From Sphingomonadaceae bacterium (GTDB lineage Bacteria; Pseudomonadota; Alphaproteobacteria; Sphingomonadales; Sphingomonadaceae), in assembly GCA_947476425.1 (NCBI GenBank), contig CANJQJ010000006.1:1-64000 (forward strand): DNA of 64,000 nucleotides, given 5' to 3'. Positions 9,125-31,505 of this stretch are shown piece by piece. How positions within the stretch are numbered: position 1 is the first letter of the stretch; each line of letters starts with the position of its first letter. Below the pieces are notes generated by a model, which was given only the letters and a program-made list of their open reading frames with translations, had not been told where the DNA came from and searched no databases. Both the position numbers and the translations under genes were made by a program.

Positions 9125-9853
9125 TCAGCCACCACTCGCGCGCCATTTCCGGTAATTCGCCTTGGCTTCCTGAACATAACCGCTGCGCGCGATCAGTTTG
9201 AGAAACAGCCGATTGACCAGGTTCGCCGGGAACGGCAGCGGTCGCGCGAAATCAATGAAGAGTACGACCCGCACCTCATCGCTGAGATTCCAGGCGCTAT
9301 GCGGGAAGCTGTCGTCGAAGATCAGGCTATGTCCTTCGCGCCAATGGCGCCGCTGGCCGGCGACCTCGATCCCGCACAGCCGCTCATCATCGGGCACCAG
9401 TACGCCCAGATGATAGCGTAATACCCCCTTGTAGGGCCCGCGATGCATCGGCAATCGCTTGCCCGGCTCGAGGATCGAGAAAAAGGCGGTGGTGAGCCCG
9501 GGGACTTGGCGCACCGCCGCCCAAGTTGCCGGACACAGCGCGATATTTTCCTCGAAGCGCGCGCCATAACCCAGAAGGAAAAAGGTCTTCCACCCGCGAT
9601 CGTTGCTCAGCTTGCGCTGGTCATCGGAGATTTCCTCGAAACCTGGTACGCGAACGCCACTATCAAACAGATTCAACAATTCGCCCCGGACGGCGGGATA
9701 CCAGGCTTCGATTCGTCGCACCCACGGGAACATGGTGGGCGAGAAGAACGCGCTATTGCCAACCCGCGACAATCGCCCGAGCAGGCTCTCGACGCGCGGC
9801 ATCAGCCCGCCAGCGAACCGCAACGTGCGCGGTTCCGCAACCGCGACTGTCAT
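9125..9853 (-). CDS. Aspartyl/asparaginyl beta-hydroxylase-like 2-oxoglutarate dioxygenase (LpxO/OlsC-related)
   Basis: The 242-residue protein belongs to the aspartyl/asparaginyl beta-hydroxylase fold family, which includes lipid hydroxylases LpxO (lipid A) and OlsC (ornithine lipid). Iron ligand candidates are His137 in MHRGPYKG and His185 in DDSFPHSAWN, with the RYHLG strand (His148) and Arg195 in DEVRVVLFIDF for 2-oxoglutarate. The start ATG 9853 overlaps the stop of the FeeM-like gene (ATGA), so the two enzymes are co-translated. The natural reading is hydroxylation of an acyl chain or amino acid in the product of the partner enzyme; peptide hydroxylation is the alternative. No signal peptide is seen. 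Confidence 0.85.
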   Translation of the reverse strand: MTVAVAEPRTLRFAGGLMPRVESLLGRLSRVGNSAFFSPTMFPWVRRIEAWYPAVRGELLNLFDSGVRVPGFEEISDDQRKLSNDRGWKTFFLLGYGARFEENIALCPATWAAVRQVPGLTTAFFSILEPGKRLPMHRGPYKGVLRYHLGVLVPDDERLCGIEVAGQRRHWREGHSLIFDDSFPHSAWNLSDEVRVVLFIDFARPLPFPANLVNRLFLKLIARSGYVQEAKANYRKWRASGG

Positions 9854-10584
9854 GCCCACACCAACTCGCGCGTAGGTTCGATTGTCCGGTCGAAACCGAT
9901 AAGCGCCGCTTCGTCATAATTCGCAGCGAAGAAGGGATAGCGATCGATGACGCGCGCTGCCTCTTCGTCATAGCTTACCAACATTAGCCCGAGCGGTCTG
10001 TTCCGCCCGGGATACGGCCTCGGCGTGGCGATCGCCTGGCAACGCAGCACGCGCCGATAGAATGCCGAATGCTCCGTGCGTACCGTGGCGGTCACCGATG
10101 AACGCGCCCGCAATCCCGCTGCGATGAATGGCAGCCGCAGCGTCATGTAGGCGAATTCGGGAATATTCCCTGCGAGAAGCGGATCGACGCAAAAACAATT
10201 GGGATCGATCAGCCGCTCCCCCGCCTCGACCAACGGCAGCAGCAAATCGGGAAAGACCGAGCATGCTGGCGACTCCCATGCGCCCCTATCGATGACATGC
10301 AACCGGATCGCCGCGCACAGATGCCCCTCGAACCATAGCCCGCAATTGAACATGTTAGCACTCGCATCGAACCGGTCCCGCAACCTGGCATCGGCACGCC
10401 GCTCGGTCGCCCCCTCGCGTCGAAACGAGCGGTAGCGCAAGTCCTGGATCGCATCGGTATCGTCTTCGCCAATTGCGACGTGCTGGTCGATCATCCTGGT
10501 GATCCGCGCAATCCGGCTGCGAAGGCCGTGTTCGGTAGCGAGGATGGCTTTCAGGTGATCCGCTATCGCCGTCGTGCATCGCAT
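9850..10584 (-). CDS. FeeM-like N-acyl amino acid synthase (GNAT fold)
   Basis: This 244-residue protein resembles the FeeM/autoinducer-synthase branch of GNAT acyltransferases, which join an ACP-bound fatty acyl chain to an amino acid. Matching segments are DAIQDLRYRSFRREG, the strand FEGHLCAAIRLHVID, the DPNCFCVDPLLAG segment, TATVRTEHSAFYRRVL and the C-terminal PLGLMLVSYDEEAARVI. ATG 10584 was chosen because a strong AGGGGGTGG ribosome site precedes it; the upstream in-frame extension is poorly protein-like. The stop overlaps the hydroxylase gene, and an AraC-type regulator gene lies 139 bp upstream on the same strand. The amino acid substrate is unknown. Confidence 0.75.
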   Translation of the reverse strand: MRCTTAIADHLKAILATEHGLRSRIARITRMIDQHVAIGEDDTDAIQDLRYRSFRREGATERRADARLRDRFDASANMFNCGLWFEGHLCAAIRLHVIDRGAWESPACSVFPDLLLPLVEAGERLIDPNCFCVDPLLAGNIPEFAYMTLRLPFIAAGLRARSSVTATVRTEHSAFYRRVLRCQAIATPRPYPGRNRPLGLMLVSYDEEAARVIDRYPFFAANYDEAALIGFDRTIEPTRELVWA

Positions 10585-10723
10585 GTTGCCACCCCCTGCT
10601 GGAATGGCGGGATAGTTATCAGCGCGATGGCAGCGATGCCCGCGGAGACGAATCCGTAATGAACTTAACCTGTTGCAGGATGAATTGGCTCGACCGGCAC
10701 TCGGTAACGGCACGAGATGCGCG

Positions 10724-11584
10724 CTAGGTTTTCAATGTCAGTTCCGGCAAATCCCCGATCAGCTTGCGTCGTTCGAACGTCAGCCGCGTGACGGGAGATG
10801 GGTTGTTCAGCAATTGCGTCGGGGTCAGTCCCGTGAACTGTTTGAACTCACGAATGAAATGCGATTGATCCGAAAAGGAATCGCCAGCCACGTCCGCCCA
10901 GCCGGCCTCACCCTCCGACAGTAGCGAGGCAGCCTTCAGCGCCCGGTATTTGCGCGCAAGCAGCTTGGGCGGACCGCCATAGATTCGCCGCGCCAGCCGC
11001 TCGACCTGCCGGCTCGAAATGCCCGCATCCGCCACCAGGCGATCGACTTCCGGCGATGAAGTGCTTGCCAGCCAGTGATCGGTCAGCCGCGTGAACCAAA
11101 GGGGCGGCTCCTGGACCCGCGCGAACAGGATCCTCATCAACGCGTCCATGCAATCGGCGATGTTCTCCTGCGATGGCGCGTTACGCATCGCGTCCAGCGA
11201 ATCATGAACCACCGCGCCCAATATGTCGGATGCATCGACGACCGTGTCGGCAAACCTGCTGGCATCGTCGCGTATCAATGCAGCCCAGCCCGCAGGCAGG
11301 ATCCCGATCCCGGCAACAAGCAAGGGCCCCGTCACCGTGAAACGCGTCGATCCAAATGTCGGCCCGAGTAAGGAGACCGGGGGTGCGAGAGACACAGAGC
11401 CATCGCCGAACCGATAACTTCCTCCTCCGGAAATCATGAAGCGGAGCTGCGGGAGATCCGCACGCATCATGTCGGAAAAATGAGGCAGGTCCGCATGGAA
11501 GATATAATAGGACGATATGACGCTGCGAAGCGAAGCCGCAGGTGTCAGATAACGCAATCCGATCGGTGGCCTGTCTATCCGCAC
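10724..11584 (-). CDS. AraC-family transcriptional regulator
   Basis: The 286-residue protein has an N-terminal cupin-like sensing half and a C-terminal AraC DNA-binding domain. Two helix-turn-helix motifs are visible: PPKLLARKYRALKAASLL, and DQSHFIREFKQFTGLTPTQ, the classic second-HTH signature. The start is GTG 11584 with an AGGGG ribosome site; the next ATG is about 40 residues in. The gene reads toward the FeeM-like and hydroxylase genes, so it probably controls them. Directly repeated GGAAACCAT elements upstream could be its own binding sites. Confidence 0.9.
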   Translation of the reverse strand: MRIDRPPIGLRYLTPAASLRSVISSYYIFHADLPHFSDMMRADLPQLRFMISGGGSYRFGDGSVSLAPPVSLLGPTFGSTRFTVTGPLLVAGIGILPAGWAALIRDDASRFADTVVDASDILGAVVHDSLDAMRNAPSQENIADCMDALMRILFARVQEPPLWFTRLTDHWLASTSSPEVDRLVADAGISSRQVERLARRIYGGPPKLLARKYRALKAASLLSEGEAGWADVAGDSFSDQSHFIREFKQFTGLTPTQLLNNPSPVTRLTFERRKLIGDLPELTLKT

Positions 11585-11686: not shown

Positions 11687-11825
11687 AAAAAAAAGCCCGA
11701 CCCGGACAAATCCGGGCCGAGCCTTGAGTAAAGGCTTCCTCGGGGGGAAGACCTTCGGGTCGCACTACCTTGCTATGCAGAGTCGCGGATGCTGTCTTGA
11801 ACAAATCCGACCTCTATCCCTAATA
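11687..11825 (-). ncRNA. Candidate small RNA with rho-independent terminator
   Basis: The minus strand here carries a run of hairpins that ends in a canonical terminator but belongs to no open reading frame. In transcript order there is a stem CTTCC/GGAAG with a CCCCGA loop (11735-11750), a perfect six-base stem AGCCTT/AAGGCT (11720-11736), and a terminal stem CCCGGA/TCCGGG with loop TTTG (11701-11716, extended by GC pairs), followed by eight T. The C-rich loop could pair with purine-rich ribosome sites, as in known alphaproteobacterial sRNAs. The 5' end is a guess; a -10-like TTTTAT lies near 11825. This element fills most of the 346-bp gap before pyrD. Confidence 0.6.
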
Positions 11826-22700: not shown

Positions 22701-23495
22701 TCATGCCGCTGCGCTGAACCGCGTCGCATAGCGTTGCGAAATATGCTCGACTGGCATGACGATGCAGACATCCACCGTGTTGAACTGCAAATCGACGAAT
22801 GCGCCCTCGCCCACCATCGCCCCGACCCGCAGATAAGCCTTAAGGAGCGGCGGCAGCGCCTGGAGCGCTGCCCGGCGATCGTAGCTGCCAATCGGATGCC
22901 TATCCATCGCCACATGATCGCCTGGCCTTGCAAACGGCCGGATTTCGCGCGGCGCGAGGTGATGGTGATGAAGATAGGAAAGCGCGATGGCATGCGCGTC
23001 TGAATCGATGCCGGGAAAAGACCCGCAGCCGATCATCAGCCCGATGTCATGTTCAAGCAGATAATCTGCAATACCGCGCCAGAGCAGCGCTATGGTCGCG
23101 CCGTTGCGATAGGGCGGCAACACGCACGAACGGCCGAGTTCAAGCAGCCCACCCCCACCGCGACGCTCAAAGCCGGCGACTGCGGAGAGATCGAATTCGG
23201 CCTCGCTGTAGAAGCCGCCATGCGCGGCAGCGATGTCGCCCCGGAGCAACCGGTAGGTCCCCACCACGCTATCCCTTTCGGGGCGGCTATCGTCGATCAC
23301 AAGGAGATGGTCGCTGATGCTGTCGAAAATGTCGCAATCGAGGCCCGCTACCGAATCGGCGGCGGGCTTGGCGCCCATCTCGTCGTAAAAGACCTGCCAG
23401 CGCAGCCGCTGCACTGCCGCTATGTCTGCAGCATTCGCCGCAATGCGTACACGAAGTGATTGATTTTCGGAGTTTTGTAACTTGCAATCGGCCAT
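22701..23495 (-). CDS. OlsB-like N-acyltransferase (L-ornithine N-alpha-acyltransferase family)
   Basis: The 264-residue protein fits the OlsB/hemolysin-like GNAT family: QRLRWQVFYDEMGAKP near the N-terminus, SVVGTYRLL, the acyl-ACP binding segment LELGRSCVLPPYRNGATI, and CGSFPGID. OlsB joins a 3-hydroxyacyl chain from ACP to ornithine, giving lyso-ornithine lipid; OlsA then adds the second chain. No olsA-like gene is in the window. ATG 23495 follows GGGAGACGG. A second, different acyl-amino acid enzyme lies at 9.85-10.58 kb. Confidence 0.85.
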   Translation of the reverse strand: MADCKLQNSENQSLRVRIAANAADIAAVQRLRWQVFYDEMGAKPAADSVAGLDCDIFDSISDHLLVIDDSRPERDSVVGTYRLLRGDIAAAHGGFYSEAEFDLSAVAGFERRGGGGLLELGRSCVLPPYRNGATIALLWRGIADYLLEHDIGLMIGCGSFPGIDSDAHAIALSYLHHHHLAPREIRPFARPGDHVAMDRHPIGSYDRRAALQALPPLLKAYLRVGAMVGEGAFVDLQFNTVDVCIVMPVEHISQRYATRFSAAA

Positions 23496-23607
23496 CGTAC
23501 CGTCTCCCGTCACTCGGGAAATAGACGGGGCGTATGACACTTCGCGAAAGGCACGGAGACAGTTACGTTACGGTGTCGTCCTACCGCTGGAATCGTTGGG
23601 CATCCGC

Positions 23608-29600: not shown

Positions 29601-29735
29601 GCGCCATTTTTGTGCCACAGTCGGGCCGGATTTTGAACGCCCATGATCGACTAAACACATTTTTGTTCGAACTGGATGGAAGGGCCGCACTAGGTGAACC
29701 AAACGCAACGGCCTTTAAAGAGGGAGCAGCTGGCA

Positions 29736-31505
29736 ATGCCCGATGACATTGCACGCCCGAAAATTATTCCGGCTATCGACGCGGAACTCGTGCCGACGGC
29801 AACCATGGACACGCTTGCGCGACGTTTTTCCGATTTCGAAACCCTTGGCGAGGCACTCGACTATGCGGCCCAGGGCCAACGCGGCCTTAATTTCCACGAT
29901 GCCCGCGGCAAGCTTGAGCGCGCCTATCACTTCTCGGAGCTGCGTTCCGACGCGCTCGGCATGGCGCGCCGTCTCATCGCGCAGGGCGTCAAGACAGGCG
30001 ATCGCATCGCTCTGATCGCTGAAACGGGCCCCGACTTCGCCGCGCTCTTCTTCGGGACGGTCTATGCCGGCGCCTGGCCCGTGCCTCTCCCTCTGCCGAC
30101 ATCCTTCGGCGGACGCGAGACTTACATCGACCAGCTCATCGTCCAGCTCGGCAGCTGCGATCCAAAGCTGCTGCTTTATCCCGATGAACTTTCGACCATG
30201 ACCGAGGCGGCTGCGGCTGCAACCAGCGTCGAAGCGATCTCATGGCAGGCATTTGGCGAATTTCCGGTCACAAACGTCGCACTGCCGAAGGCAAGCGGCC
30301 AGGATATCGCATATCTTCAATATTCGAGCGGATCGACTCGCTTCCCGCATGGCGTAGCGATCACGCACCATGCCTTGCTCAACAATCTCAAGGCGCATGC
30401 CTATGGGATGGCGCTGATCGATACCGACCGCTGCGTGAGCTGGCTGCCCTGGTATCATGACATGGGCCTGGTCGGCTGCTTCCTGTCCCCGATCGCGAAC
30501 CAAGTCTCGACCGACTACCTCAAGACCGAGGATTTCGCACGCCGTCCGCTTGCGTGGCTCGACATGATCAGCCGCAACGAAGGTACGTCGATCAGCTACT
30601 CGCCGACCTTCGGCTACGATATCTGTGCGCGACGAATTTCCAGCCAGACCCACGCCAGCGACCGATTCGACCTTTCGCGCTGGCGGCTGGCCGGAAACGG
30701 TGCCGACATGATCCGGCCGGACGTCATGCAGGCTTTCGTCGATACGTTTGCGGATACCGGCTTCAAGGCATCCGCTTTCCTGCCGAGCTATGGCCTCGCC
30801 GAAGCCACGCTTGCCGTCTCGATCATGCCGCCGGGCGAAGGAATTGTCGTCGAGCTGGTCGAGGAAACCGAGCTTTCGGGGAGTGACCGCGCAACCGGAC
30901 GCCCCAAGCGCTATCGTGCGGTCGTCAATTGCGGCAAGCCCGTGCGCGACATGACCATCGAGGTCCGCGACGAGGATGGCGCAATCCTGCCGGAGAAGTC
31001 GATCGGCAAGATCTGGTGCAAGGGCCCGTCGGTGATGGTCGGATATTTCCGCGACGAGGAGGCGACCGCCGCCTGCATGGTGGATGGCTGGCTCGACACC
31101 GGCGACATGGGCTATCTTTCGGACGGCTACATCTACATCGTCGGCCGCGCCAAGGACATGATCATCGTCAACGGCAAGAATCACTGGCCGCAGGACATTG
31201 AATGGGCCGTCGAACAGCTGCCGGGCTTCAAGGCCGGCGACATCGCGGCCTTTGCCATCACGACACCCGGCGGCGAGGAAACACCTGCCGTGCTCGTCCA
31301 GTGCCGTACCTCGGATCCCGCCGAGCGCACCCGCCTGCGCAATGAGATACGGGAACGCGTCCGCTCGATCACCGGCATGCATTGCGTCGTCGAACTGGTT
31401 CCGCCCCGCACGTTGCCGCGCACCAGCTCCGGCAAGCTGAGCAGGACGAAGGCGCGCAATCTCTATCTGTCGGGCGAGATCCAGCCGTACGACATCGCGG
31501 CTTGA
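29736..31505 (+). CDS. Fatty acyl-AMP ligase (FAAL/FadD32-like)
   Basis: The 589-residue adenylating enzyme has the FAAL version of the motifs: LQYSSGSTRFPHGVAITH, VSWLPWYHDMGLVGCFL, SYSPTFGYDIC, LPSYGLAEATLAV, WLDTGDMGYL and GRAKDMIIVNGKNHWPQD. These FAAL hallmarks, especially the SYGLAEATL and WYHDMGL blocks, separate it from acyl-CoA synthetases; FAALs usually hand acyl-AMP to an acyl carrier protein. No ACP, PKS or NRPS gene lies nearby. ATG 29736 has AGGGAG upstream; a GTG at 29694 is another option. Confidence 0.88.
   Translation: MPDDIARPKIIPAIDAELVPTATMDTLARRFSDFETLGEALDYAAQGQRGLNFHDARGKLERAYHFSELRSDALGMARRLIAQGVKTGDRIALIAETGPDFAALFFGTVYAGAWPVPLPLPTSFGGRETYIDQLIVQLGSCDPKLLLYPDELSTMTEAAAAATSVEAISWQAFGEFPVTNVALPKASGQDIAYLQYSSGSTRFPHGVAITHHALLNNLKAHAYGMALIDTDRCVSWLPWYHDMGLVGCFLSPIANQVSTDYLKTEDFARRPLAWLDMISRNEGTSISYSPTFGYDICARRISSQTHASDRFDLSRWRLAGNGADMIRPDVMQAFVDTFADTGFKASAFLPSYGLAEATLAVSIMPPGEGIVVELVEETELSGSDRATGRPKRYRAVVNCGKPVRDMTIEVRDEDGAILPEKSIGKIWCKGPSVMVGYFRDEEATAACMVDGWLDTGDMGYLSDGYIYIVGRAKDMIIVNGKNHWPQDIEWAVEQLPGFKAGDIAAFAITTPGGEETPAVLVQCRTSDPAERTRLRNEIRERVRSITGMHCVVELVPPRTLPRTSSGKLSRTKARNLYLSGEIQPYDIAA

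Follow-up and report, generated by a model that had tools for sequence, protein, structure and literature searches.

The closest described systems are the N-acyl amino acid synthases of the FeeM type, for which a catalytic glutamate has been named and an association with exosortase/PEP-CTERM genes is known (PMC4897644, in part). A FeeM-type enzyme with a PilZ domain has also been published, and the replacement of Glu103 by alanine in the synthase Nas354 abolished its haemolytic and surface-active phenotypes (both PMC4897644, in part). This glutamate (Glu95 in FeeM, Glu103 in Nas354) is used below as the mark of a FeeM-type synthase. The second relevant system is OlsC, which adds a C2 hydroxyl to the acyl chain of an amino lipid (PMC11001654, PMC5767591, each in part); in ornithine lipids it acts on C2 of the secondary, ester-linked chain (PMC11001654, in part), and the “LpxO” of Brucella and Ochrobactrum turned out to be OlsC (PMC5767591, in part). 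Finally, Roseovarius is known as the source of an N-acyl alanine methyl ester with a terminal hydroxyl group (PMC6296433, in part).

Here we describe a locus in which a FeeM-like gene overlaps a gene for an OlsC-type hydroxylase. The window (the whole stretch of DNA analysed, 64,000 nucleotides) comes from a draft genome (2.8 Mb in 88 contigs) that is 99.4% complete and the sole one of its genus in the comparison set. The following features are considered:

9125 to 9853, minus strand: OlsC-type Fe(II)/2-oxoglutarate acyl hydroxylase, 242 aa (PF05118, E 3.2e-47)
9850 to 9853, minus strand: ATGA, in which the hydroxylase ATG (9853) overlaps the stop of the FeeM-like gene, as read in the sequence
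9850 to 10584, minus strand: FeeM-fold N-acyl amino acid synthase-like GNAT, 244 aa from ATG 10584 (PF21926, E 1.5e-31)
10585 to 10723, minus strand: intergenic gap (139 nt) from the end of araC to the FeeM ATG, which has AGGGGG just before it
10724 to 11584, minus strand: AraC-type regulator (PF12833, E 8.3e-14, and PF00165)
22701 to 23540, minus strand: OlsB-like L-ornithine N-acyltransferase (PF13444, E 4.4e-30; NF052555, 281.9 bits)

The sequence-only reading placed the regulator, the FeeM-like gene and the hydroxylase here on one strand; all three lie on the minus strand, their frames are open and intact, their Pfam families are those claimed, and the overlap is confirmed in the sequence. 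For the hydroxylase, GTG 9859 (6 nt upstream of ATG 9853) is a possible alternative start. The longest frame of the FeeM-like gene begins at GTG 10713, and the PF21926 match takes up its residues 89-245; judging from the alignment, ATG 10584 is the likelier start, because the relatives align only from about there. A consensus scan of the gap between araC and the FeeM-like gene on the minus strand gave no sigma-70-like promoter. Each gene of the pair is the only match to its own Pfam family (PF21926, PF05118) in the draft genome. The pair has a GC of 0.61 and a GC3 of 0.71-0.73, similar to the 15 other ORFs computed; recent transfer as judged by composition was rejected, since the pair differs in neither value. 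We also note a 15-pair stem-loop with a T run at 11692-11725 (minus strand, in the divergent araC/pyrD interval), the scan as a whole giving 3 sites against 3.3 by chance, i.e., no excess, and a fatty acyl-AMP ligase gene at 29694-31505 (NF006624, 895 bits).

The predicted fold of the FeeM-like protein is that of FeeM (2g0b), with an identity of only 14-17%. The AlphaFold2 model, built on an alignment with 42 relatives, has a pLDDT of 91.4. The top six chains found with it by Foldseek are all FeeM (best E 2.7e-11), and VIA-align puts FeeM 2g0b at the head (Z 18.3, 2.8 A over 182 residues) before the AHL synthase RpaI (Z 16.6), a ranking that speaks for the families listed and leaves unlisted ones possible. 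The check by structure prediction against FeeM, proposed in the sequence-only reading and run on the acyltransferase, thus returned the solved FeeM as the best PDB match; the PF21926 score is also over its cut-off, and the FeeM-like fold and family are borne out.

The active site differs from that of the described enzymes. FeeM-type enzymes have the catalytic glutamate and a basic residue three positions on, whereas the window protein has Asp127 and Cys130 there. The aspartate stands opposite the glutamate of the exosortase-linked FeeM of genome G050 (81% probability) and, in weak matches to two AHL synthases (E 0.012 and 0.022), opposite theirs. It is shared by 40 of the 42 relatives; from the alignment, this FeeM-like subfamily may use aspartate in place of the catalytic glutamate. 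Residue 130, by comparison, is arginine in 40 of the relatives and glutamine in two, so that the cysteine is shared by none of them. Four other departures affect columns kept in at least 37 of the 42 relatives, and all nine invariant columns are retained. As aligned, a protein with Asp127 is not a Glu-type FeeM, and we make no claim of its inactivity; the activity may be altered or lost, because aspartate replaces the catalytic glutamate and cysteine replaces Arg130. In the family tree the end branch of the window protein is long (1.29, median 0.25), and it joins a Rhizobium row, maybe through a long-branch effect; this placement is not settled.

The relatives of the FeeM-like protein are remote. 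Among the genomes sampled from the family it was matched in 1 of 397, i.e., in its own, and among those of the class in 3 of 385, the other two showing 34% and 31% identity. In the GTDB species set, 125 FeeM-like places were confirmed; the best 80 of the 125 have 28-41% identity and belong, as far as they are named, to Hyphomicrobiales and Rhodobacterales. No relative found exceeds 41%. On plasmids, FeeM relatives occur in 11 records (33% identity at best), and hydroxylase relatives reach 47% among the matches listed (20 of 103 records).

The sequence-only reading made its proposal depend on co-conservation of the two genes across Sphingomonadales, and this co-conservation is absent in everything examined. 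In the order sample of 98 genomes, 26 have some match to PF21926, with E < 1e-20 only in G000, G050 and G079; 49 have PF05118; and a strong FeeM match adjoins a PF05118 gene in the window only. No hydroxylase was found by BLAST in the fetched flanks of the FeeM-like gene at the best 80 of the 125 loci. A hydroxylase profile run over 153 stretches matched only three, which are the window itself, and none of the 150 others; these comprise the 80 loci of the GTDB set, 30 of 38 further places of a phylum sample, 27 from weak PF21926 matches of the order sample and others, six of them duplicating a place and many having 1.5-kb flanks only. The profiles found no hydroxylase in five plasmid regions around a FeeM match and no FeeM in eight plasmid regions around a hydroxylase (flanks 1.5 to 6 kb). 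As far as seen, the pair is an arrangement of one genome in everything examined.

Two side observations concern hydroxylases on plasmids. In Mycobacterium riyadhense (L036:1-6693) an OlsC-type hydroxylase starts 49 nt behind a long NRPS-type amino acid adenylation gene, and on the Novosphingobium plasmid pLA5 (L242:2920-6666) a hydroxylase of the same type adjoins the Kdo-sugar genes kdsA, KpsF/GutQ and kdsB.

The neighbours of the FeeM-like relatives are of interest in their own right. The published FeeM-type genes have the exosortase/PEP-CTERM link, while the window gene has a hydroxylase neighbour; in G050 (L042:9147-16871) another FeeM gene of the sphingomonad family lies near PEP-CTERM-like proteins and a membrane protein that resembles an exosortase, as judged by eye from the translations. 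The nearest sequences to the window protein (up to 41% identity) are Hyphomicrobiales FeeM-like GNATs, with which it has the Asp position in common; they stand mostly behind a GGDEF-EAL gene, and a hydroxylase is present in none of the 80 loci scanned. Of the 68 loci outside Rhodobacterales (L048-L126), 59 have the FeeM-like gene just behind a GGDEF-EAL gene of the same strand, the domains having been confirmed in two of them. This suggests that N-acyl amino acid synthesis is linked to c-di-GMP, and the PilZ-domain enzyme mentioned above gives a second link beside these neighbours. A literature search found no biochemistry of the GGDEF-EAL-linked Hyphomicrobiales enzymes.

In Rhodobacterales the FeeM-like gene directly follows a methyltransferase gene in all 12 loci (L121:4061-5645, L077, L095, L062, L113, L127, L087, L073, L091, L098, L115 and L122), 11 of which come from the neighbour tally and L127 from reading its own ORFs. 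A histidine kinase gene follows downstream in 11 of the 12; the L121 stretch ends soon after the FeeM-like gene. The loci include those of Roseovarius tolerans DSM 11457, R. atlanticus and R. confluentis. For the N-acyl-alanine methyl esters of R. tolerans and the related Loktanella esters, the available parts of PMC11580390 and PMC6296433 give no candidate synthase gene as of 2024, and a search of the open-access literature gave no paper whose title names a candidate for an N-acyl amino acid methyl ester synthase. We consider the FeeM-like and methyltransferase genes of Rhodobacterales a candidate N-acyl-alanine methyl ester synthase, because such a product needs an acyltransferase and a methyltransferase; the R. 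tolerans strain sequenced (DSM 11457) differs from that in which the esters were measured (EL-164). Loktanella isolates make N-acylglycine methyl esters (PMC6296433, in part). On a plasmid of Loktanella salsilacus (L047:4498-5594) a methyltransferase-like gene and the FeeM-like gene overlap, with 4 nt in common; the former scores over the cut-offs for DUF1295 (28.2 bits) and PEMT (28.2 bits) and misses that for ICMT (20.7 bits, cut-off 24).

Concerning the hydroxylase, the sequence-only reading assigned it to the LpxO/OlsC family. The OlsC side of this assignment holds: against the NCBIfam models, the protein scores 262 bits for OlsC (NF052565) and 143 bits for LpxO, and its nearest rows in the tree are OlsC-type; both cut-offs (450 and 500) are missed. 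The two histidines and one arginine expected of an OlsC active site are in place. They are H137, H185 and R195, none of which varies in the 53 other aligned rows, and by the roles in AspH we take the histidines to be metal ligands and R195 the 2-oxoglutarate residue. In a tree of 54 rows (40 of them sphingomonad) a branch with support 97/99 sets the window protein and ten rows apart from all the sphingomonad rows and three more. The ten are two G529 proteins (one a true OlsC), G557, two from Phyllobacterium, Pseudoroseomonas, Pseudomonas, Mycobacterium riyadhense, LpxO and G500, the last two on long branches. Nearest are Pseudoroseomonas, Phyllobacterium and the G529 OlsC (a protein that exceeds the OlsC cut-off, 45% identical), while the order within the set is not settled. 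A structure model of the hydroxylase from the single sequence was set aside (pLDDT 43).

The hydroxylase shares its Pfam family with LpxO; its low score with that model and the lack of an LpxC match set it apart, and on these two grounds the proposal of a lipid A hydroxylase was rejected. LpxC had no match in the 99.4%-complete draft, in a search whose control gave matches in 4 of 14 genomes. Lipid A is therefore an unlikely substrate, and the expectation in the sequence-only reading that a classic LpxO substrate would be missing is consistent with this result.

The site itself is informative on the regulator, which the sequence-only reading had included in the pathway. Of 59 genomes searched for pyrD, 56 gave a match, and the comparison covers 30 loci, one being the window. 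In the 29 others (flanks up to 1.5 kb) neither FeeM nor the hydroxylase occurs, and iscR lies beside pyrD in seven. Genome G017 has the order sufC-sufB-iscR-araC-pyrD-GGT, which is that of the window minus the pair, and its AraC between iscR and pyrD is 52.5% identical to the window AraC. An AraC adjoining pyrD in G011 is 58.9% identical, one about 2 kb from pyrD in G021 is 45% identical, and two in G026 are 28-33% identical. The N-terminal half of the window AraC is DUF6597-like (PF20240, 22.2 bits, below the cut-off of 27). We presume that the regulator is probably a resident of the iscR-pyrD interval and does not form part of the pair; a three-gene pathway with AraC was rejected, since araC occupies the site in G017 without the pair. 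Considering that G017 has the same order minus both genes, the pair probably arrived or left together: as the gene orders compare, it would have been inserted beside the resident araC or lost in G017. Gain and loss are not distinguished, because one genome alone has the exact order; gain is favoured because the FeeM protein is so rare.

We tentatively propose, as the leading reading but still short of probable, a lineage-specific two-gene operon that makes an N-acyl amino acid with a hydroxylated chain, placed between iscR and the resident araC. In it, the divergent FeeM-type GNAT would acylate the amino group of an amino acid or of a small amine with a long chain, the probable donor being acyl-ACP. 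The OlsC-type iron/2-oxoglutarate hydroxylase, translated from the overlapping start of what would be a shared transcript, would take this product as its substrate and hydroxylate the acyl chain, with C2 as the probable position. This would likely yield a hydroxylated N-acyl amino acid, acting as a membrane-active lipid or a signal. The narrower version, an operon dedicated to 2-hydroxy N-acyl amino acids and made up of an Asp-type FeeM synthase with an OlsC-type hydroxylase, is possible, and we lean against it. Of the pathway as given in the sequence-only reading, the FeeM fold, the OlsC-like hydroxylase and the overlap stand; the regulator and the co-conservation do not, and the Asp/Cys site and the OlsB-like gene count against it. 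It also counts against coupling that single-domain hydroxylases of sphingomonads are common without a FeeM neighbour: 40 of the better ones have varied neighbours, no constant partner and no FeeM profile match.

The serious rival substrate is ornithine lipid, in view of the OlsB-like gene and the published substrate of OlsC. The hydroxylase would then be the OlsC of this genome, acting on ornithine lipids (or similar ones) whose synthesis the OlsB-like enzyme starts, and the FeeM-like protein would independently make an unmodified N-acyl amino acid, with only transcription shared. The OlsB-like gene, 13 kb from the pair, is the only match to PF13444 in the genome (about 282 bits with NF052555, cut-off 320 not reached); the preference of the hydroxylase for the OlsC model over the LpxO model and the protein over the OlsC cut-off among its nearest rows agree with such a role, as does the substrate described for OlsC (PMC11001654, PMC5767591, each in part). 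However, the score is far below the OlsC cut-off, and the hydroxylase gene overlaps FeeM and not OlsB; its partner is FeeM-like and not an ornithine-lipid gene. We regard this explanation as possible and rank it below the coupled pathway. It is less likely that the FeeM-like protein is degenerate or changed in activity and the arrangement a relic: the loss of Arg130 with the four other departures, the long end branch and the ceiling of 41% identity would fit, but the frame is intact, the nine invariant columns are retained and the fold is confidently predicted.

Sphingomonads carry amide-linked 2-hydroxy fatty acids, and one could presume that the hydroxylase makes those of the glycosphingolipids, FeeM being an unrelated neighbour. 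The genome without an LpxC match and the single PF05118 match in it are in line with this. Such fatty acids are, to our knowledge, near universal in the family; nevertheless, 188 of the 397 family genomes have no hydroxylase match at E 1e-10 (the 209 with a match include a longer, different type), a P450 alpha-hydroxylase is known in Sphingomonas, and the window hydroxylase does not group with the sphingomonad ones in the tree. We hold this to be the least likely explanation of those considered.

As for the coupled pathway, no report of a FeeM/OlsC-type gene pair or of an N-acyl amino acid synthase with a hydroxylase was found in the open-access literature, which is weak evidence of absence; the available part of PMC10666787 mentions an N-acyl amino acid synthase and a hydroxylase in unrelated places. 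The Roseovarius compound (16-OH-C16:1-NAME) is likewise a natural chain-hydroxylated N-acyl amino acid derivative; it has the hydroxyl at the chain end and a methyl ester, and no hydroxylase gene is assigned to it in the available part of PMC6296433. Since chain-hydroxylated N-acyl amino acid esters are already known compounds, only the pathway and the hydroxylated position would be new. The wider result is an Asp-type FeeM-like subfamily that stands beside c-di-GMP genes in Hyphomicrobiales or a methyltransferase gene in Rhodobacterales. In the present genome the pair may be a small lineage-specific lipid pathway. If its enzymes act one after the other, a tailoring step would be added to the FeeM-type synthases, the OlsC-type hydroxylase would have a substrate besides ornithine lipid, and the use of such a hydroxylase in a sphingomonad without LpxC would be revealed.
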